A stretch of DNA of 64,000 nucleotides from an uncultured Coriobacteriaceae bacterium (GTDB lineage: Bacteria > Actinomycetota > Coriobacteriia > Coriobacteriales > Eggerthellaceae), in NCBI GenBank assembly GCA_902768975.1, contig CACXMZ010000001.1:1-64000 (forward strand), written 5' to 3'. Below are positions 11,259 to 53,204 of this stretch, in pieces. Both the position numbers and the translations under genes were made by a program. Every line of letters begins with the position of its first letter. Within the stretch, counting starts at the first letter, position 1. The notes below the pieces were generated by a model. The model was not told where the DNA came from, did not search any database, and saw nothing but the letters and a program-made list of their open reading frames with translations.

Positions 11259-13136
11259 TTAGCGCATCACTTTCTCGAGAATGGTATAGGTATGACGATA
11301 CTTATCATCGCGTCCGGAGTTTAAAATGGCCTCCAGCTCAAGATATACTTCCTCGTCATCAAATAGCTCGAGCAAAAACGGCGCATAACGTGTGCCGCTT
11401 CCCTCTTTCAGCTCTGAAACAAACCCATCAAGTGTCTTACCTTTTTTGTACGTACGCCCAACATTGTCGGTGGCGGCATCAAGGCAATCTGCACAGGCAA
11501 CGAGGTCAACCACCAAACGATTCTTGACCTTTTCTGGGTCATACGTCTCTGGATACCCGCCCTTACCGTCATACCAACGCTGATGTCCAAGAGCAACATC
11601 GGCATAATCCTTGGTCTTTTCGTGCTTGGAAAGAAGACGCGCCCCAACCTCGGGATGGCAACGTATCCAGTCGAATTCTCTGTCGTAGAGCGGTCTGCCG
11701 TACGTAATAATTGTTTCCACGACAAATAGTTTTCCTATATCGTGGCAAGCAGCAGCACGCCAAATATGATCCATAATTGCATCGACGTCCGGATATCCCG
11801 GGGTATTTGCAAACATATCCGGGTGCTTTCTAAAAAGGTGCTTGGCCAAACATGCGCTTAAATCTGCAACAGACAAAGAATGAATATACGTAGGTGGATG
11901 AATGGCTGCGAGAAGTTCCAAACACATGGTTCCAAAGTCGGCTGCTCCGTCGATATCTATGAAGTTATCGAGCAGGAAAGCCAGCTCGGTCAAGAGGAAA
12001 GGCAGATTTCCCAGCTTAGGCATCCCGTGAACATATCGGATGAGCTCTTTATAAAAACCGACGAGCGTTTCCTGGTCTTTTTCGCTTATATTATCCCGAT
12101 CGATGGTAAGCATGTATTCAAGAGGAACCGTCGTTTTACGCTGCATTTCATCAACATTGTAGATATCGTTCTTTGAGTTTGCCGCAAATTCGATGAGCCG
12201 AGCCTTATACGCTTCCTTGTCGATATCGCCAGCAAGATAAGCACAGCGCGTGGCTGCAAATAGTATGGTACCTGTCGAATTGCGATCTTTAAGGTGCTCG
12301 TACTCACGCTCCCATATCTCTAGAAGGAGCTTGGCCTTTTCGTTTATTTCCGCAAGCTGCTTTTGATTGAAGCCAATCATGTTATGAAAAATAGTCATGA
12401 GGCTGCAATAGTGCAGGGTACGGAACTCGTGGTATATCCAGTCGAAGTCTGGCACTAGTTCTCGGTACTCTGGAACATCCTTAAGCGAAAGAGCGCGCCG
12501 CAGTAATTGAAGAATGGGCTCGGAAAGAGCGCTGTCTTCCTTGGTGAGCGGATACTCATACAGTGTCATGATATATCTGGCATTAATGAGAACTGCTTCC
12601 CGAACAGGACCTTCTGGTAATGTCTTCAGCTTCTCTGGCGGCAGATATTCCAAAATGCGGTTTACTGCTTGAAGTCCTTCCTCTCTACACTTGACGGCAG
12701 AATCGGAATACGGATATACCCTTCGCACCATGGTTAGGTAGGCATAGGTAGCCATGACGAAATCGTCCAGTGATCTTATGATGGCTTCTTCGTCATGCTT
12801 TCTTTCTGCATCCTCGCAAAGACGGCGCGCTACTCGGTATATGGTCGGAGCATCCATGTTGTCCATGACATATGCATCCATAAGGTTTTCGCGCAAATCG
12901 CGAAGAACCACAACTTCCTCTTCGGTTAGGAGGCGATTGCTATCGAGCACCGGCATCAGATAATCATTCAATAAGCCGGTCTTAATCTGAGCGATATCTC
13001 CTATTCTACGGAAGTTAGTCAAGAGTTCTTCGCGGTATGACGCAGCATCCTCGGAATTTGCAATTTGAGGTGATGAAAGCTCTCTAATCCAGGTACTGAG
13101 CTCTACAAATTTTTCAGCAACTTCCCTTAAGGTCAC
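11259..13136 (-). CDS. HD-GYP-like phosphodiesterase with helical N-terminal region (paralogue 1)
   Basis: 625 residues from a GTG at 13136 preceded by GGAAGGA; a GTG at 13166 is possible but has no good ribosome site, and the same internal start in the paralogue at 20536-22413 gives exactly the same length. The N-terminal about 440 residues are helical. The HD-GYP-like domain shows AACHDIGK (about 463-470), CHPEVGARLL, GHQRWYDGKGGYP and ADCLDAATDNVGR. HD-GYP enzymes degrade cyclic-di-GMP. Here the usual HH pair reads HQ, a substitution not found in paralogue 2, so metal binding may be altered. First gene of the HD-GYP/GGDEF/343-residue/C11 set. By eye about 70% identical to paralogue 2. Confidence 0.88.
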   Translation of the reverse strand: MTLREVAEKFVELSTWIRELSSPQIANSEDAASYREELLTNFRRIGDIAQIKTGLLNDYLMPVLDSNRLLTEEEVVVLRDLRENLMDAYVMDNMDAPTIYRVARRLCEDAERKHDEEAIIRSLDDFVMATYAYLTMVRRVYPYSDSAVKCREEGLQAVNRILEYLPPEKLKTLPEGPVREAVLINARYIMTLYEYPLTKEDSALSEPILQLLRRALSLKDVPEYRELVPDFDWIYHEFRTLHYCSLMTIFHNMIGFNQKQLAEINEKAKLLLEIWEREYEHLKDRNSTGTILFAATRCAYLAGDIDKEAYKARLIEFAANSKNDIYNVDEMQRKTTVPLEYMLTIDRDNISEKDQETLVGFYKELIRYVHGMPKLGNLPFLLTELAFLLDNFIDIDGAADFGTMCLELLAAIHPPTYIHSLSVADLSACLAKHLFRKHPDMFANTPGYPDVDAIMDHIWRAAACHDIGKLFVVETIITYGRPLYDREFDWIRCHPEVGARLLSKHEKTKDYADVALGHQRWYDGKGGYPETYDPEKVKNRLVVDLVACADCLDAATDNVGRTYKKGKTLDGFVSELKEGSGTRYAPFLLELFDDEEVYLELEAILNSGRDDKYRHTYTILEKVMR

Positions 13137-13267
13137 ATTGCTTCCTTCCAATACGTATGCTCTCACGCCAGCACTAACTCTCGCTTTTTTTAATTCTAGT
13201 TGAAATATCGTTGTGCAACCACCATTATTTGGATAATCCTGGCGTATACACCATATATTTTAGAGCA

Positions 13268-18968: not shown

Positions 18969-19163
18969 TTATTCGTACCACTGATTCAGGTGGCAGTCGC
19001 TACGCTCACCGAAGGAATCGCATGACCATCCGCCAGCAACGCCTTCCATTTCTTCGTCAGAAAGCTTATAGCCTTCCTTCTTGGCGAGCTCCAGCAGCTC
19101 TTCAGGAGAGTTGCACGCCATGGCCTTTTCGCGCAGTTCGGGGCTCAAGTCTTTAAAATCCAT
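18969..19163 (-). CDS. Nif11-type leader peptide / RiPP precursor-like peptide 1
   Basis: 64 residues from the ATG at 19163, with AGGAAGG seven bases upstream. The leader MDFKDLSPELREKAMACNSP, then EELLELAKKEGYKLSDEEM, follows the Nif11-type leader family and ends in VAGG, a double-glycine cleavage site at about residues 44-45. The predicted core after GG is 19 residues, WSCDSFGERSDCHLNQWYE, with two cysteines and aromatic ends. Such leaders direct modification and/or export of ribosomal peptides. No lanthionine synthetase, YcaO, radical-SAM maturase or C39-ABC exporter is adjacent, so the core may be disulphide-bonded, modified in trans, or unmodified. A candidate promoter lies at 19226-19255. 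Confidence 0.82.
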   Translation of the reverse strand: MDFKDLSPELREKAMACNSPEELLELAKKEGYKLSDEEMEGVAGGWSCDSFGERSDCHLNQWYE

Positions 19164-19225
19164 AACGTTTCCTTCCTCTTGCAAAGCTGGGGCACAATAG
19201 CTCCAGCATGTTATGCCTTACAACA

Positions 19226-19255
19226 ATTATATGCACATTGCAGACTATCTGTCTT
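19226..19255 (-). promoter_or_regulatory. Candidate promoter for Nif11-type peptide 1
   Basis: On the minus strand TATAAT (19226-19231) lies 18 bases downstream of AAGACA (19250-19255), and about 63 bases upstream of the peptide start. A small hairpin CTGGAGC/GCCCCAG lies in the predicted leader. Confidence 0.45.
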
Positions 19256-19328
19256 ACAAATAGCACACGTTCCAAAACGTCACACTCACACAGGCTTCTT
19301 CAATACTTAGAAGCCAAGCCTCATGGGA

Positions 19329-19508
19329 CTAGTCGCCAATAAGCAGCGCACAGTGGGTACACGACCAGCTTTTGCCACCCGAAACGGCTGCAAGTTCTTC
19401 TTCGGAGAGCTTATAGCCTTCCTTTTTGGCGAGCTCGAGGAGTTCTTCAGGAGTTTTGCATGCCTTCACCTTTTCACGCATTTCGGGGCTGAGGTCTTTG
19501 AAGTCCAT
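19329..19508 (-). CDS. Nif11-type leader peptide / RiPP precursor-like peptide 2
   Basis: 59 residues from the ATG at 19508, with AAGGAAAGG just upstream. The leader MDFKDLSPEMREKVKACKTP, then EELLELAKKEGYKLSEEELAAV, is nearly identical to peptide 1 and ends in SGG. The predicted core is KSWSCTHCALLIGD, 14 residues with a CxxC pair. Both peptides share the triplet WSC close after the double glycine while the rest of the cores differ: conserved leader, diverged core, as expected of paralogous RiPP precursors. It lies 165 bases upstream of peptide 1 and 137 bases downstream of the PrsW-type protease gene, all on the minus strand. Confidence 0.82.
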   Translation of the reverse strand: MDFKDLSPEMREKVKACKTPEELLELAKKEGYKLSEEELAAVSGGKSWSCTHCALLIGD

Positions 19509-19645
19509 AACCTTTCCTTTCAGAAATCTCTTTTCTTGCTGATACTAATACGCTCCATCAAAGCGTTTCATCTCGTACAAAGCTTAGATTAACGCAATTT
19601 ATGCAACAACACGCAATCCACGCGCGTGCCAATAAGTCTTGGTGC

Positions 19646-20428
19646 CTAGGGTTCAATTGGTAGCGCGCAAGACCGTTCGGTGTTTTTCTTGAACTGCCAG
19701 AGAACAGTGAACTGCAAAATAAGCGTTACAAGTGCCATGACTCCTGCATAAACAAGACCGACGCTTTGTACCATTGGATCATCCGGCGCCAGGATGAGAG
19801 GAGTCTTTACCGTCGCAGAGTCATAAAGGGTATGCCAGAGCACCGGCAAAATCAGGCCAAGGGCCAGCCAGCGCCCTGCCCCGGGCTTGCCTGTCTGCTT
19901 GCAGTGCTTGTACATGCCTAAACCAAGACCCATAACGGTGTTTAAAACCATATGCATGGCAAAGAACGGAAGACGCACAAAAGTAAGGACTGCTCCGCCT
20001 TCTGCATTGGGATCGATATAGAGGTATTCCTCCATAATGCAGAAGCCGAGACCAATCGCAGCACCGATGAGGGCGTACTCGTAGACCTTCGCTGGCTTCA
20101 CAATCTTGACTGCGATGAGAATTAAGATGAACTTAACAAACTCTTCCGTAAAACCTGCCAAAAAAAAGCTAGCCAGCAAGGAATTAGCGAAAGCGTTAGG
20201 TGTGAGCTGAAGGAATGTTGCGCCAAAGAGCTTCATTGCTCCACCGTTGAAAAGAAGAGCAAGGCCTGTGGAAAGCAAGGGGGCAATACAACCCAGAGCT
20301 ATAGGAATGACTATCCTCCACCAGGGTTTCATGGGTTGGGGAACTTCGCGCTTATAGGCCCTTATGAAAACGAAGAGACATAGAGCGATTGCGATAAGTG
20401 CCGGTACGTAAGCTAACATGCTAGTCAT
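19646..20428 (-). CDS. PrsW-type intramembrane metalloprotease
   Basis: 260 residues with about seven membrane segments. The three family motifs are present within predicted helices: EEFVK at 95-99, FCIMEE at 129-134 and HMVLNTVMG at 159-167, whose Glu and His residues bind the catalytic zinc. PrsW of Bacillus subtilis cuts an anti-sigma factor; relatives are linked to peptide maturation or immunity. The start has AAAGGA upstream. Its location directly upstream of the two Nif11-type genes makes these peptides, or a protein that senses them, possible substrates; this is inferred from position only. The downstream gap of 137 bases leaves co-transcription uncertain. Confidence 0.85.
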   Translation of the reverse strand: MTSMLAYVPALIAIALCLFVFIRAYKREVPQPMKPWWRIVIPIALGCIAPLLSTGLALLFNGGAMKLFGATFLQLTPNAFANSLLASFFLAGFTEEFVKFILILIAVKIVKPAKVYEYALIGAAIGLGFCIMEEYLYIDPNAEGGAVLTFVRLPFFAMHMVLNTVMGLGLGMYKHCKQTGKPGAGRWLALGLILPVLWHTLYDSATVKTPLILAPDDPMVQSVGLVYAGVMALVTLILQFTVLWQFKKNTERSCALPIEP

Positions 20429-20535: not shown

Positions 20536-22413
20536 TTAGCGCATTACTTTCTCAAGAATGGTATACGTGTGACGATATTTGTCGTTGCGACCAGAATCTA
20601 AAAGGTCCTTTAGCTCGTCATAAATCTCTTCATCTTCGAAAAACTCGAGCAAAAACGGCGCATAGCGCGTACCGCTCCCGCCCTTCAGCTCTACTATGAA
20701 GTCGTCAAGTTCCTTGCCCTTTTTATATGAACGCCCGACGTTGTCGGTGGCGGCATCAAGGCAGTCTGCACAGGCAACTATGTCAACCACCACGCGGTCT
20801 TTGGCCTTTGCCGGATTATAGGCCTCTGGATATCCGTCCTTTCCGTCATACCAGCGATGATGCCCTAAAGCCACATCAGCATAATCCTTAGTCTTTTCTC
20901 GCATGGAAAGGAACTTTGCTCCCGCTTCAGGATGGCAGCGAATCCAGTCAAATTCCCTGTCATAGAGCGCTCTACCGTAGGTAATAATCGTTTCCACAAT
21001 GAAAAGCTTACCTATATCGTGGCAAGCTGCTGCATGCCAAACATGGTCTGCGACAGCATCGATATCCGGGTATCCTGGCGTATTCGCAAACATCTGTGGA
21101 TGCTTTCTAAAAAGGTGCCTGGCGAGGCATGTGCTCAGGTCTGCCACAGACAAAGAATGAATGTAGGTAGGCGGATGAATAGCTGCAAGAAGTTCCATAC
21201 ACATGGTTTCGAAATCGATGACCCCGTCGATTTCTATGAAATGTTCAAGCAGAAAGGCTAACTCGGTCAAGAGGAAGGACAGGTGCCCCAGCTTGGGCAT
21301 CCTGTGAATATATCTGACGAGCTCTTTATAAAAGGTAGCGAGAGCTCCCTTGTCTTTTTCGGTCAAATTATCAGGGTCGACAGTCAGCATGTACTCAATG
21401 GGAATCGACGTAATGCGCTGCATTTCATCGGCATTGTATCTGCCGCTTCTGGGACTTACCGCCAATTCGATAAGTTTGTCCTGATATGCATCTTTGTCGA
21501 TTTCGCCAACCAAATAGGCGCAGCGCGTGGCTGCAAATTGTATCGTCTCTGTCGAGTTATAGTCCTTAAGGTGCTCGTATTCCCTCTCCCAGATTTCTAG
21601 GAGTTGCTTGGCCTTTTCGTTTATTTCTTCAAGCTGCTCTTGATTGAAGCCGTAACTATTATGAAAGATGGTCATGACGCTAAAATAATGCAGCGTACGG
21701 AACTCGTGATACACCCAGTCGAAGTCTGGCACAAGACTGCGATACTCTGGTATATCTTTCAGCGAAAGGGCACGCCTTAACAGTTGGAGTATGGATTCAG
21801 TAAGGACGGCATCATCGTCGGAAAGCGGGTATTCGAACAATGTTGTGATGTATCTGGAATTGATAAGGACCGCTTCTCTGGCAGAATCTCCTGACACGGT
21901 TTCGAGCATTTCCACTGGCAGGTATTCCAAAATACGATTCGCTGCCCTCAGCCCTTTTTCCTTACACTTAAGCGCAGAATCGGAATATGGATGGACCCTT
22001 CGCACCATGGCAAGATACGCATACGCAGCCATCACGAAGTCATCCAGCGATCTTAAAACGGCTTTTTTATCTTGCTTTCTTTCTGCGTCCTCAAGAAGCC
22101 GACGTGCCACTCGGTATATGAATGGAGTATCCATATTGTCCATGACATATGCGTCAAGGAGGCTTCCTCTTAGATAACGAAGGACCGAAAGTTCCTCTTC
22201 GGAAAGGATGTAGTCGCTTTCCAATACCGGTCTTAGATACACTTCCATTAAATCGGTCTTGACCTGCGCAATGCTTCTAATAATACGGAAGTGAGTCAGA
22301 TACTCTTTTCGGTACGACGTGGCGTCGTAGATATTGACAATTTGTGGTGATGAAAGCTCTCTAATCCAGGTGCTGAGCTCTACATACTTCTCTGCTGCTT
22401 CCCTTAGTAACAA
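20536..22413 (-). CDS. HD-GYP-like phosphodiesterase with helical N-terminal region (paralogue 2)
   Basis: 625 residues from a TTG at 22413 preceded by AAAGGA; a GTG at 22446 would add 11 residues but lacks a ribosome site. Start and length match paralogue 1 (11259-13136) exactly. HD-GYP-like motifs: AACHDIGK (about 463-470), CHPEAGAKFL, GHHRWYDGKDGYP and ADCLDAATDNVGR. Unlike paralogue 1 it keeps the HH pair, so it is the better candidate for an active cyclic-di-GMP phosphodiesterase. The N-terminal half contains the stretch TWIRELSSPQI, shared with its sister. First gene of the long minus-strand run, 107 bases before the PrsW-type gene. Confidence 0.88.
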   Translation of the reverse strand: MLLREAAEKYVELSTWIRELSSPQIVNIYDATSYRKEYLTHFRIIRSIAQVKTDLMEVYLRPVLESDYILSEEELSVLRYLRGSLLDAYVMDNMDTPFIYRVARRLLEDAERKQDKKAVLRSLDDFVMAAYAYLAMVRRVHPYSDSALKCKEKGLRAANRILEYLPVEMLETVSGDSAREAVLINSRYITTLFEYPLSDDDAVLTESILQLLRRALSLKDIPEYRSLVPDFDWVYHEFRTLHYFSVMTIFHNSYGFNQEQLEEINEKAKQLLEIWEREYEHLKDYNSTETIQFAATRCAYLVGEIDKDAYQDKLIELAVSPRSGRYNADEMQRITSIPIEYMLTVDPDNLTEKDKGALATFYKELVRYIHRMPKLGHLSFLLTELAFLLEHFIEIDGVIDFETMCMELLAAIHPPTYIHSLSVADLSTCLARHLFRKHPQMFANTPGYPDIDAVADHVWHAAACHDIGKLFIVETIITYGRALYDREFDWIRCHPEAGAKFLSMREKTKDYADVALGHHRWYDGKDGYPEAYNPAKAKDRVVVDIVACADCLDAATDNVGRSYKKGKELDDFIVELKGGSGTRYAPFLLEFFEDEEIYDELKDLLDSGRNDKYRHTYTILEKVMR

Positions 22414-22539
22414 GTGAGTTCCTTTCAACAAGGTATGAGTACGCAAGCGCTATTTGGCACATTTTTAGTATCATTCTGTGCCCTATTGTAAAGCACTTGG
22501 TATGAATCGCAAATATGGTTCGCTTCAGCATAAAAATGC

Positions 22540-26934: not shown

Positions 26935-27633
26935 TTAGAACGGAAGGGCGTAGGGGTCGGAGAGTTGATGGATACGCGTGAGGGAGCGAACGCGTATGTT
27001 GCTTTCCCCCTCCAGCATGGCATTAAGCAACGCGTCTGGCCGCATGCTTCCTTCTTGGCGCGCCAACAGCGCAAACTGAATGCTGTCACCTTCAACCTTG
27101 GGCCCCGCCACCAAATAGTCGGGAACTTGGAGCACCTTTTCCTTGCCTTTGCGCACCACGGTAATAAAGGGTGGCGGCATAAGTGGCCCTTCCAGCTGGC
27201 CGTCGATGCGCGCTTCATACAAAGACACGGGGTAGGCATTGCTGGCCGCGGGCGCACTGCGCTCGATGTATTCACAGGACACAATAAACAAGTCGGGCAC
27301 GGACGCGTCGCGCAGGGCAAGATGGGCTTCTTCAGGGGGAATGTAGCTTGTTAAAAACACGTCGAAGAGTTCGCGTTCGCCGCCTATACCCACCGGCAGT
27401 GCTGCCCCAAAGGCAATCTTCATATGGGGCGAAAAACCCTGGGTGATGGCATAAGGCAAGCCCGCACGGCGCACGGCACGTTCCAGGGCATGAGCCACTT
27501 CCAAATGCGAAAGCATGACTGCACGCCCGCGCTTGGCAAAGCACACGCGCAAACGGAAGCTGTCCTGCGGCTGGTTCTTGCGCGGAGCCTGCAAAATGGC
27601 ATAGAGCTTTTCGGTATTTTGCAAGGGGCTCAC
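26935..27633 (-). CDS. DUF2344 (TIGR03936-type) radical-SAM-associated protein
   Basis: 232 residues matching the family encoded beside the large radical-SAM protein of the next gene: FRLRVCFAKRGRAVMLSHLEVAHALERAVRRAGLPYAITQGFSPHMKIAFG near the N-terminus. No signal peptide. It overlaps the upstream gene by four bases. The family is widespread in Actinobacteria and Firmicutes, often as a fusion with or neighbour of the TIGR03960 protein; the biochemical role is not established. Last gene of the long mre/radical-SAM run. Confidence 0.88.
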   Translation of the reverse strand: MSPLQNTEKLYAILQAPRKNQPQDSFRLRVCFAKRGRAVMLSHLEVAHALERAVRRAGLPYAITQGFSPHMKIAFGAALPVGIGGERELFDVFLTSYIPPEEAHLALRDASVPDLFIVSCEYIERSAPAASNAYPVSLYEARIDGQLEGPLMPPPFITVVRKGKEKVLQVPDYLVAGPKVEGDSIQFALLARQEGSMRPDALLNAMLEGESNIRVRSLTRIHQLSDPYALPF

Positions 27634-29501
27634 GAACGCGCCTCCTGAATGTATATGTCGGTATTAAGATCCTGACACAAGCCGCAGCCCGTACAGGATT
27701 CGAAGGTGCAGTCGGGCGTAGTCTGCCCCTCCAAGGCGCGCCTATATTCCGCGCGCAGGTAGCCCAGGGACACCCCACAGGAAATATGCTGCCAAGGCAG
27801 GACTTCACGCAGCTCGAAGGAGCGCTGTGCCGCGGCATCCACGTCCAAGCCGCATGCCGCCGCAGACTCACGCCAGGCATCTTCGCGGAAGTGTTCGGTC
27901 CATGCGTCAAAGCGACTCCCCCGCTCCCAGGCGCCTTGCAGCAGGTCCGCACATTCGCGCCCGCCGCGGCTCATAAGCGCTTCCACGAAGCTGGTCGCTG
28001 GGTCATGCCAATTAATGCGCACCTGCTTGTACTTCACGGAATTGCGCAGCAGGTTTACACGGCGCAGGGCTTCTTCAGGCGGAATCTGGCCACACCACTG
28101 GAAGGGGGTTTGCGCCTTGGGCACAAAGAGGGCACAGGACGCACCAATCTGAATGCGCCCGCGCTGGTCGGGCGGCGTTACTTCGCGCGCGCAGTCATAG
28201 GCACGCTGCACGAGGCTGGCAATGCCTTTAACATCTTCGTCGGTTTCCGTTGGTAGGCCAATCATGAAATAGAGTTTGCAACGACGCCAACCCGCCTTAA
28301 AGGCCGCTTCTATGGCGTTGAACAGGTCATCTTCCGTCACGTTCTTATTAATAACGTCGCGCAGGCGCTGGGTTCCCGCTTCAGGCGCAAAGGTCAGGCC
28401 GCTGCGCTTCTCCCCTGCTACCAGCTTGGCCATACCCACGCCAAAGGAGTCAAGGCGCTGCGACGGAATGGACACACGAATACCCGTACCCGAAAGTTCG
28501 GTACCCAAACGTGACAAAATCTGTTCGATCTGCGAATGGTCGGTGGTCGAAAGCGAAGTGAGGCTTACTTCGTCGTAGCCCGTTTCCTTTAAGCCCGTGA
28601 GCACCGACTGCACGATGTTTTCCGCGCTGCGTTCACGCACGGGCCTATACGTCATGCCCGCCTGGCAGAAACGGCAACCACGCGCGCAGCCGCGGAGGAT
28701 TTCAACATTTAAGCGGTCGTGTACCAGGTCGGCGAAGGGAACAATGCAGGGTTCCCAGCCGCTGGATTCGGCAAAACCTTCCCACACGCGTTTGTGCACC
28801 ACGGCAGGTGCCGCTTCGTGTATGGGCCGGACCATGGCTCCCACTTCAGCGGGGTTTTCTACCGGCTCGTAGAGGCTCGGCACATAGGTACCTGGAATGC
28901 GCGCCAGGTCTACAAGAATCTCTTGACGCGACTTGCCCGCCCGGCGCCCGTCGCGTATGCAGGCCACCGTTTCGGGCATTGCTTCTTCACCTTCACCTAT
29001 GCACATGCAGTCGAAAAAAGGTGCATAGGGTTCAGGGTTGTAGGTGCAGGGGCCACCTGCCATCACGAAAGGTTCAGCTTCGCCGCGTTCGCTAGCTCGT
29101 AAAGGAATGCCTGCTAGATCGAGGGTTTCAAGCACGTTGGTAGCCGCCAGTTCATGCGGGAGCGTAATGCCCACGCAGGTAAATTCAGAAAGCGGTGCAC
29201 AGCTTTCAAGCGAAAACAGGGGCAGGCCTTCCTCGCGCATGAGGTCGGCGAATTCAGGGTCGGGCAAGAAGGCGCGTTCGGCCCACATACCTTCAGTCGC
29301 ATTAACCGCATTCACCAAGATGCGAATAGCCTGGTTGGCCTGACCTAGTTCGTAGGTGTCGGGATACACCATGCAAAAAGAAGCGTCTGTGGGGTCGTCG
29401 GTGTCGTAGCGATGGACCGCCCCATATTCATGGTTGATATAGCGCACTGGCCGCGCAACTCGCGGCAGAAGCAAGGACAGTTGTGGCCACAAATCGGTCA
29501 T
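27630..29501 (-). CDS. TIGR03960-type B12-binding-like radical SAM protein
   Basis: 623 residues. An N-terminal Rossmann-like region (about 30-190) resembles a cobalamin-binding domain; the radical SAM core follows, with the cluster motif CARGCRFCQAG at about 274-284 and the supporting motif FAPEAGTQRLRDVINKN. Near the C-terminus there is an extra Cys-rich stretch, ESCTGCGLCQ, that may hold another iron-sulphur cluster. Its substrate is unknown; the pairing with the DUF2344 protein is conserved. It overlaps both neighbours by one to four bases, so it is translated in the same operon as the cell-shape genes. Confidence 0.9.
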   Translation of the reverse strand: MTDLWPQLSLLLPRVARPVRYINHEYGAVHRYDTDDPTDASFCMVYPDTYELGQANQAIRILVNAVNATEGMWAERAFLPDPEFADLMREEGLPLFSLESCAPLSEFTCVGITLPHELAATNVLETLDLAGIPLRASERGEAEPFVMAGGPCTYNPEPYAPFFDCMCIGEGEEAMPETVACIRDGRRAGKSRQEILVDLARIPGTYVPSLYEPVENPAEVGAMVRPIHEAAPAVVHKRVWEGFAESSGWEPCIVPFADLVHDRLNVEILRGCARGCRFCQAGMTYRPVRERSAENIVQSVLTGLKETGYDEVSLTSLSTTDHSQIEQILSRLGTELSGTGIRVSIPSQRLDSFGVGMAKLVAGEKRSGLTFAPEAGTQRLRDVINKNVTEDDLFNAIEAAFKAGWRRCKLYFMIGLPTETDEDVKGIASLVQRAYDCAREVTPPDQRGRIQIGASCALFVPKAQTPFQWCGQIPPEEALRRVNLLRNSVKYKQVRINWHDPATSFVEALMSRGGRECADLLQGAWERGSRFDAWTEHFREDAWRESAAACGLDVDAAAQRSFELREVLPWQHISCGVSLGYLRAEYRRALEGQTTPDCTFESCTGCGLCQDLNTDIYIQEARS

Positions 29502-51791: not shown

Positions 51792-53204
51792 ATGACAGAC
51801 TTTGGAGAACAAAGCAGAAAAGACCGGGCACGTGCCCGTGTTGCCGCACGCTTTGACCAAGAAAGGCCACGGCGTCGCACGAAGGCTTCTTCAGAGCACC
51901 CCGAAGAAAGTGGCGAAGCGCGTCGTGAACGGCCGAGCCGCGAACGCGAACTGCGAAGCGAGCGCGAAACCAGGCGCGAACGCGAAGCACGAAACGACCG
52001 TGAAATACGAAGTGAACGCGAACGAAGGACTAATCGCGAGCCACAAGGCGAACGCTCGCCACAAAGTGAAGAACAGCTCGAAAAAGACTCCGCACAGCAA
52101 AGGCTTTCTTTCGGCAGCGTGTTTATTGGGCTCCTCGAAAGCTATGGCATCAAGTTTATTGCGGTCCTTGCCCTTGTTGCCCTGCTCGTACTTTCTTTCT
52201 TTGTAGGAAGCATTCTGCGCAGCTGCGCAAATGAAGCACAGCAAGGCACTTCGAGCAGCAGCATCATAAGCGTACAGCCCAGCGCAGGCACACAAACAAG
52301 CACGGCAAATAGTTCGGGCACCACCAGTTCCAGTTCCGCCAGCTCAAATTCAGGCTCGGCAGCAAGCTCGCAGGGTCAGGCGGGGAGCAGCTCCGTCTTA
52401 AGCAAGATTAGTGCCGCTGCTGCCGAAAAACGAGCCAGCATCGAAGAAGACGACGTTAAGATTTCCGACGTTTTGGAAGAAAGCCTGGTCAAGCAGATTG
52501 AAGCCCAGGCGAAAGTCAACAAAGACACCGCCTGGATTGCGACCCATCCCAGTGAATACGCTTTTGATGGCTGGGCTGTGCAATACAAGATTTTGAAGCT
52601 CGCCGCTGAAGAACCCGCGGCTACCACCTATGTGCGCGAATGGCCAGAACTCTACCCCGCCGAAGACCAAAACCTCAAGAGCCCTCACGCCATTCAGGGC
52701 ACTACCACGGGCCCGAAAAACATTCCCCAGCTTTACCAGTGGGACCCCCGCTGGGGCTACACGGTATACAGCTCTACGGCCTTCGGAATGACCGGCTGCT
52801 GCCCCACCACGCTCGCCATGGTCTACCAGGGTCTGACTGGTAAGACCGACATGACGCCTTATGACATGGGCGTTCTTGCGGCAAACGACGGCTACATGTC
52901 TGAATATGAAGGCACCGACGCATTCTTCCTTATCAATGAAGCTCAGGGCCTTGGGCTTAATTGTTATGAAATTTACCTTGCGACCGAAAGCATGATTGCT
53001 GCTCTTGAAAACGGCGACGTCCTTATTGCAAACGTGGGCCCGGGCGACTTCACCAACGACGGGCACTTTATTGTTGTTACGGGGCTTAAAGACGGTAAGC
53101 TAATTGTGAACGACCCTTACTCGATGCAGCGCTCTGAAAAACTCTGGGACCCCGACGAAGTCATGAACCAGTGCAAGGCAGTGTTTGCCTACTCCAAGGC
53201 TTAG
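51792..53204 (+). CDS. Membrane-anchored C39-like (Peptidase_C39_2) cysteine protease
   Basis: 470 residues. The cytoplasmic part (1 to about 112) is extremely Arg/Glu-rich (repeats such as REREARNDREIRSERERR). A single membrane helix (about 118-140) is followed by a Ser/Thr/Gly-rich linker (about 150-210). The C-terminal domain (about 310-465) has the catalytic Cys in MTGCCPTTLAMVY, the His in DGHFIVVTG and the Asp in LIVNDPYS. This subtype is usually a surface hydrolase, unlike the ABC-fused C39 domains that process bacteriocins. Transcribed alone; converges on the Rrf2 gene. Confidence 0.87.
   Translation: MTDFGEQSRKDRARARVAARFDQERPRRRTKASSEHPEESGEARRERPSRERELRSERETRREREARNDREIRSERERRTNREPQGERSPQSEEQLEKDSAQQRLSFGSVFIGLLESYGIKFIAVLALVALLVLSFFVGSILRSCANEAQQGTSSSSIISVQPSAGTQTSTANSSGTTSSSSASSNSGSAASSQGQAGSSSVLSKISAAAAEKRASIEEDDVKISDVLEESLVKQIEAQAKVNKDTAWIATHPSEYAFDGWAVQYKILKLAAEEPAATTYVREWPELYPAEDQNLKSPHAIQGTTTGPKNIPQLYQWDPRWGYTVYSSTAFGMTGCCPTTLAMVYQGLTGKTDMTPYDMGVLAANDGYMSEYEGTDAFFLINEAQGLGLNCYEIYLATESMIAALENGDVLIANVGPGDFTNDGHFIVVTGLKDGKLIVNDPYSMQRSEKLWDPDEVMNQCKAVFAYSKA

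Follow-up and report, generated by a model that had tools for sequence, protein, structure and literature searches.

Genes A and B, two short genes in the window (the whole 64-kb stretch of DNA analysed here), are not orphans. The genome, that of a gut or rumen coriobacterium, encodes a family of eleven or more such Nif11 genes at scattered places. Our preferred reading, to which we give a probability of about 0.74, is that these scattered Nif11 precursors are matured in trans by radical-SAM enzymes and exported through NHLM/C39 transporters, and that the core peptide of gene B (core B) has a U32-like protein as a partner. The reading draws on features of the sequences: the precursors, the enzymes and exporters encoded in the same genome, adjacency and co-occurrence of leaders and maturases in relatives, a residue bias at the third position after Cys (Cys+3), selection on core B and the co-occurrence of core B with the U32-like protein.

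From these features, we infer a cross-link in the cores, their secretion, a tailoring of core B and the identity of the maturase for A and B. The Nif11-type leader would recruit SPASM-type radical-SAM maturases encoded elsewhere, namely that on contig C4 and possibly that on contig C6 (Table 1), and the maturase would probably form a bond between the sulphur of a core Cys and a carbon in the side chain of residue +3 (Cys-X-X-Y/F/H/W/V/L/D). Cleavage after Gly-Gly and secretion of the core would be the task of NHLM ABC exporters with C39 domains, encoded elsewhere on contigs C4 and C5, and core B would additionally depend on a dedicated U32-like four-cysteine protein that probably acts in tailoring. 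As to the biological role, a bacteriocin or a signal would be our guess.

Table 1. Features of genes A and B in the window, and radical-SAM peptide maturase genes on other contigs of the same genome
Feature	Position	Strand	Basis or remark
Gene A (upstream, 59 aa)	19329-19508	minus	translation: leader MDFKDLSPEMREKVKACKTPEELLELAKKEGYKLSEEELAAVSGG then core KSWSCTHCALLIGD
Gene A Nif11-type leader, 45 aa, GG end	19374-19508	minus	PF07862 and TIGR03798 above cut-off
Gene A core (19332-19373) and stop codon	19329-19373	minus	translation
Gene A ribosome-binding site region GAAAGGAAAGG, directly 5' of ATG	19509-19520	minus	sequence
Gene B (downstream, 64 aa, from ATG)	18969-19163	minus	translation: leader MDFKDLSPELREKAMACNSPEELLELAKKEGYKLSDEEMEGVAGG then core WSCDSFGERSDCHLNQWYE
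Gene B Nif11-type leader, 45 aa, GG end	19029-19163	minus	PF07862 above cut-off
Gene B core (18972-19028) and stop codon	18969-19028	minus	conserved over genera and families
Gene B ribosome-binding site region GAGGAAGGAAA, directly 5' of ATG	19168-19178	minus	sequence
Candidate gene B promoter, AAGACA-18-TATAAT	19226-19255	minus	consensus scan, 10/12 matches; weak evidence
Radical-SAM peptide maturase	C4:33747-35099		beside NHLM pair
Radical-SAM peptide maturase	C7:134008-135357		beside EEGMEIP-type precursor
Radical-SAM peptide maturase	C6:37619-38932		

Two members of a scattered precursor family

The initial annotation described two short genes with good ribosome sites, and both are found with purine-rich sites on the minus strand; a similar pattern lies 5' of other precursors in the genome. 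Both genes pass the Pfam Nif11 model PF07862 (41.8 bits for A and 32.9 bits for B, cut-off 23.8), which upholds the assignment to Nif11-type leaders, while with NCBIfam TIGR03798 gene A passes at 35.2 and gene B just misses at 31.4 (cut-off 32.3). The leaders had been called near-identical. They do both have 45 residues and end in GG, but 35 of the 45 residues are identical (78%), so that the wording was overstated. Translation confirmed that WSC is the sole part that the two cores have in common. In both genes, the translations and the alignment show a leader with a GG end followed by a short variable core, as in other Nif11-leader RiPP precursors. Since the leader model matches A and B with E-values of 1e-31 to 1e-32 and the family recurs across the order, in 75 of 395 genomes, the matches are beyond chance, and A and B are genuine Nif11-leader precursors with Cys-containing cores. 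The nearest relative of core A is KSWSCEHCALLIGD, from locus L027 of the metagenome-assembled genome (MAG) SIG38. The candidate promoter hints that gene B may be transcribed on its own; TATAAT-like boxes are also placed upstream of other precursors in the same genome.

At E<0.001, Pfam Nif11 has 11 matches in the genome that contains the window (1.89 Mb, 96% complete), ten of which are above the cut-off, and the leader profile of the family has 16. Eleven precursors translated by hand all have the leader and GG in common, and their cores contain a Trp within three residues of GG, mostly with a Cys close behind. The leader is of the EGYKLS type in eight of these precursors, A and B among them, and of the EEGM(E/V)IP type in two. 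The initial annotation had made its reading depend on whether related strains keep the leader and GG; both are conserved, and core B even more so. Leader relatives were absent from the viral contigs searched, and gene B had no match among plasmids and phages.

Two further arrangements were observed around such genes. In the window, two HD-domain proteins that are 74% identical (11259-13166 and 20536-22446) bracket a peptide-transport operon, both Nif11 genes and a PrsW gene. On a contig labelled Erysipelotrichaceae (L099:6972-14892), 13 neighbouring genes encode Nif11-type leaders with zinc-ribbon-like CPxCG...CxxCG tails, and similar tails are found in the genome studied here (C2:118571 and C2:154585) and in the Coriobacteriia loci L029 and L034.

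Radical-SAM maturases and exporters encoded elsewhere

No peptide maturase and no C39 exporter scored above cut-off in the 64-kb window, in agreement with the earlier remark that no maturase is adjacent to the two genes. The lone radical-SAM gene of the window (27630-29501) was rejected as a peptide maturase, as it belongs to the B12-binding family TIGR03960 (691.5 bits, cut-off 462.3). A 470-aa protein at 51792-53204 contains a weak C39-like stretch (around 52902) of 19.2 bits, below the cut-off. The genome-wide search that had been recommended recovered SPASM-type radical-SAM proteins, C39-ABC proteins and further leaders. LanM-type and YcaO maturases were rejected, the best LanC-like match (PF05147) in the genome having 12.4 bits against a cut-off of 23.2, and YcaO having no match there at E up to 1.

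The genome encodes three radical-SAM peptide maturases, of which the C4 protein matches the SPASM domain TIGR04085 with 45.2 bits (cut-off 27). Only the C7 maturase directly adjoins a precursor, and the C4 maturase has no neighbouring Nif11 gene. None of the maturases comes close to any equivalog cut-off of NCBIfam, and the type of cross-link can therefore not be read from the family. The AlphaFold model of the maturase, based on eight sequences, was poor (pLDDT 49). Three NHLM ABC clusters with C39 domains are located on contigs C4, C5 and C7. Their ABC1 proteins score 945.2 (C4) and 871.8 (C7) against a cut-off of 853.3, and the ABC2 partners 701-703, slightly below the cut-off of 709.4, such that the combination of an ABC1 with C39 domain and an ABC2 that characterises NHLM export systems is present. 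The C39 Cys and His are kept at C4 and C5, while the C7 domain lacks the His. The HlyD-like gene of the C7 cluster (C7:142399-142815) is short, with 138 aa that cover only the first 48 of the 421 model positions. This short gene and the missing His in ABC1 indicate that the C7 cluster may be decaying. STAS-domain genes adjoin two of the NHLM clusters and a SpoIIE/HATPase protein adjoins one (C5:21651-24747, C4:32829-33131), and export may thus be under partner-switching control.

A search of genome contigs yielded 79 loci, and Coriobacteriia of the rumen or gut are the source of nearly all. In about nine of these, orthologs of the C4 maturase (64-73% identical) are located 0-183 bp from Nif11 precursors. 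In locus L037, a leader of the A/B type (that of gene B) is placed 7 bp from an ortholog of the C4 maturase (64% identical) and ABC1 and ABC2 genes are present as well, and in locus L071, EGYKLS leaders adjoin an ortholog of the C6 maturase (73% identical). Among the 395 genomes of the order, 75 had leaders, 55 had a C4-type maturase (E up to 1e-60) and 54 had the two together, so that all but one of the maturase-bearing genomes (54/55) have leaders (Fisher p 7e-48, a statistic that ignores relatedness). Counted by genus, leaders occur in 22 and the maturase in 15 of 123. Another 21 genomes have leaders and no maturase at this threshold; some of these are incomplete or contain weak leader matches only, but G190, which is 99% complete and has 12 leaders, is a real exception. 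The linkage between SPASM-type maturase and precursor that characterises ranthipeptides is thus seen in L037 and other loci, in the co-occurrence across the 395 genomes and in the TIGR04085 match.

The initial annotation had left two options, a maturase acting in trans or peptides used unmodified, and the first is now the better of the two, with three radical-SAM maturases and three NHLM clusters encoded outside the window. Maturation of A and B in trans is strongly supported by the genomic evidence because the genome encodes maturases and exporters, orthologs of the maturases are found beside leaders, and leaders and maturases co-occur. To judge from these gene associations, radical-SAM enzymes and exporters from other parts of the genome very probably process A and B. 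The C4 maturase is a candidate for this role and the C6 maturase possibly another, the C6 and C7 enzymes competing with that of C4.

Core peptides and a probable U32-like partner of core B

A positional rule in the cores was first noticed in a discovery set of 74 non-redundant short cores with 162 Cys residues, and was examined again in a hold-out of 22 further cores (48 Cys) with at most 40% identity to the discovery set. In the null model, the Cys positions were fixed and the other residues shuffled within each peptide. At Cys+3, the discovery set has 59 Y/F/H/W residues against 24.1 expected and 9 G/S/T/P/A residues against 56.5 expected, and the hold-out has 19 against 8.4 and 3 against 15.1, respectively. 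None of 2000 shuffles was as extreme, and no other offset came near in both sets. Exceptions occur in the two peptides of the window, with a Cys at +3 from the first Cys of core A (CTHC) and an Asn at +3 from the second one of core B (CHLN). The bias suggests Cys-X-X-residue cross-links, and one way to read it is that each Cys forms a thioether with the side chain at +3.

Core B, with the 19 residues WSC(D/S)SFGERSDCHLNQWYE, is unusually stable. Its degenerate DNA pattern was found in 9 of the 395 genomes, from six genera and three families, a count in which some genomes may share contaminating contigs, as G005 and G341 carry identical core-B contigs. The backward control pattern had no match in any listed genome. 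Between the window and the other carriers, the 19 codons of core B differ by 0-1 nonsynonymous and 5-6 synonymous changes, while the last 38 leader codons differ by 6-13 nonsynonymous changes. With so few nonsynonymous changes in the core against many in the leader, it is core B and not the leader that is held fixed, a pattern that clearly indicates purifying selection on core B over three families. A few other core families are likewise fixed, for example WCSEHEWGCPADKCGVYG(V/I)GR, while most cores of the family vary freely. Blocks in the core-B regions of Olsenella (L061:5733-9150) and the MAG SIG38 (L029:7160-12705), which belong to different families, are approximately 82-84% identical, and the common blocks include a YidE-type transporter and a surface protein. 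Such likeness across families points to horizontal transfer, and we propose that core B is a fixed, horizontally spread product.

These features bear on three other explanations of the two genes. Export of unmodified peptides that form disulphides once cut at Gly-Gly, the other option of the initial annotation, would fit the Cys-rich short cores and the C39 exporters of the genome. Disulphides are nonetheless disfavoured because 19 of the 74 non-redundant short cores have a single Cys. Odd Cys counts are frequent, the spacing of neighbouring Cys residues is 4 or 5 far more often than in shuffled peptides and almost never 1-3, the residue at Cys+3 is usually other than Cys, and the maturase genes track the leaders; with this strong Cys+3 rule, the option has become unlikely. 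It is less likely still that A and B are decaying, non-functional copies from an expansion of precursors. They are lone genes, and truncated or stop-interrupted Nif11 copies exist in relatives (e.g., L061:7040), but core B is under clear purifying selection across three families and both genes keep ribosome sites, leader, GG, Trp and Cys. For gene A, the evidence against decay is thinner and consists of one close relative (L027). Release or sensing of the peptides by the PrsW-type protease next door (19646-20428), as had also been suggested, is very improbable. The protein is adjacent, encoded on the same strand and a member of the PrsW family (Pfam, 73.3 bits); on the other hand, a gap of 137 bp separates the genes, the protein scores 57.8 against 225 for the PrsW equivalog, and in the other loci fetched, tblastn placed no PrsW next to Nif11 genes. 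GG leaders are a known substrate of C39 domains, which the genome contains, and PrsW was rejected as the processing protease since the linkage is not conserved.

Under maturation in trans, core B has a further candidate enzyme. A protein of 286 residues with weak similarity to U32/UbiU proteins is encoded 0.1-1.3 kb downstream of core B in G337 (SIG38), G343, G341/G005, G057, G068 and G103. In the genome studied here, the U32-like gene (C2:153494-154354) is far from core B and adjoins another Nif11 precursor (core KAWSGADCDKERQLCWDHA), and in G034 it is likewise far from core B. The ten closest copies form one clade with a support of 100/100, which comprises all nine core-B genomes and G064 and no other among the 395 (p 1.7e-17 for co-occurrence, uncorrected). 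Families are intermingled in the tree, which fits horizontal transfer. The assignment to U32 is weak, with two Pfam Peptidase_U32 matches of 12.3 and 18.4 that both fall below the cut-off of 22.4. Invariant Cys residues are found at C48 in 29 of 30 homologs and at C187, C191 and C217 in all 30, one of which is a fragment; the four Cys of the U32 family are thus present in sequence, with an Fe-S cluster as a prediction. The best fold matches of the structural model (pLDDT 67) are assorted TIM barrels with Z up to 13, and no U32 structure was among them.

We consider this protein probably a further tailoring enzyme for core B, given its distribution. That it instead just travels with core B on a mobile block, as a hitch-hiker, is a lesser possibility that deserves serious weight, given the short distances in the genomes listed above, the further neighbours that SIG38 and Olsenella have in common (the YidE-type transporter and the surface protein) and homologs of 36-48% identity in genomes without core B. 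Against this, the genome studied here and G034 keep both genes although they are far apart, and the clade occurs in all nine core-B genomes and in just one other. If the protein is a tailoring enzyme, its relatives offer an analogy, as U32 proteins are of the Fe-S type, and hydroxylations have been linked to UbiU-UbiV and RlhA (PMC6747719). This suggests, without showing it, an oxygen-independent hydroxylation. Like members of this family, the protein has four Cys, the first of which is far upstream as in UbiV, and its model hints at a TIM barrel; it differs in that it misses the Pfam and NCBIfam cut-offs and in that the genes adjoin peptide precursors. Literature searches on U32 in RiPP pathways and on the names of the maturase families returned nothing directly relevant.

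Relation to known systems

In the prochlorosins, many scattered Nif11-leader precursors are served by few maturases in trans (PMC10783134). The layout described here, as read from the genes, resembles that of the prochlorosins and synechococsins, for which one enzyme, ProcM, is responsible, in the GG-ended Nif11-type leader, the scattered precursors with very different cores and the maturases in trans. It differs in having radical-SAM/SPASM enzymes and no LanM-type or YcaO enzyme above cut-off in the genome, and in that core B is fixed rather than hypervariable. The NHLP/Nif11 families with NHLM exporters (Haft, Basu and Mitchell 2010, PMC2887384) are similar in the leader, the ABC1/ABC2 pair and the distance between precursors and modification genes, and Eggerthella lenta is named there for Nif11 precursors beside exporters. 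However, radical SAM is unmentioned in that paper, and we found no description of the core families, the Cys+3 rule or the U32-like partner. A radical-SAM enzyme is also the sole candidate maturase for Nif11 peptides in TIGR04064, the nif11-like peptide radical-SAM maturase (PMC3023750), but the maturases here score 73.2 and 68.9 bits, so far under the cut-off of 518.7 that they represent a different family.

The closest characterised type is PapB, which forms ranthipeptides with Cys-X3-Asp/Glu thioethers to the beta or gamma carbon (PMC9413430). The tandem Cys units are similar, and the SPASM-type enzymes here score 111-119 bits to PapB, against a cut-off of 340. The spacing differs, with Cys-X2 in our cores (a bias at +3, not +4), and the acceptors are largely aromatic as well as Asp. 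Nif11 precursors with exporters, distant modification genes and radical-SAM maturases are thus each already known singly (PMC2887384, PMC3023750), while the rule at Cys+3 and the U32-like protein that accompanies core B look new. In the literature searched, which covered few subscription journals, no paper linked Nif11 with Coriobacteria. We tentatively advance, as a doubtful wider picture, that gut and rumen Coriobacteriia contain a previously undescribed radical-SAM counterpart of the prochlorosins, in which Cys-X-X-acceptor cross-links would be formed in trans and core B would be tailored, perhaps through oxygen-independent hydroxylation, by a U32-like Fe-S enzyme.

Two seemingly orphan peptide genes are hereby turned into a testable trans-acting pathway with named enzymes, and the spacing rule would predict cross-links from sequence. 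If true, such a Cys-X-X-acceptor rule is one not described in the literature searched. A cultured carrier of core B, Olsenella intestinalis KCTC 25379 (L061/G103), makes it possible to check the prediction. One peptide and one enzyme are singled out as travelling together through gut bacteria, and the latter would, if the proposed tailoring is true, be the first U32 enzyme to act on a ribosomal peptide product.
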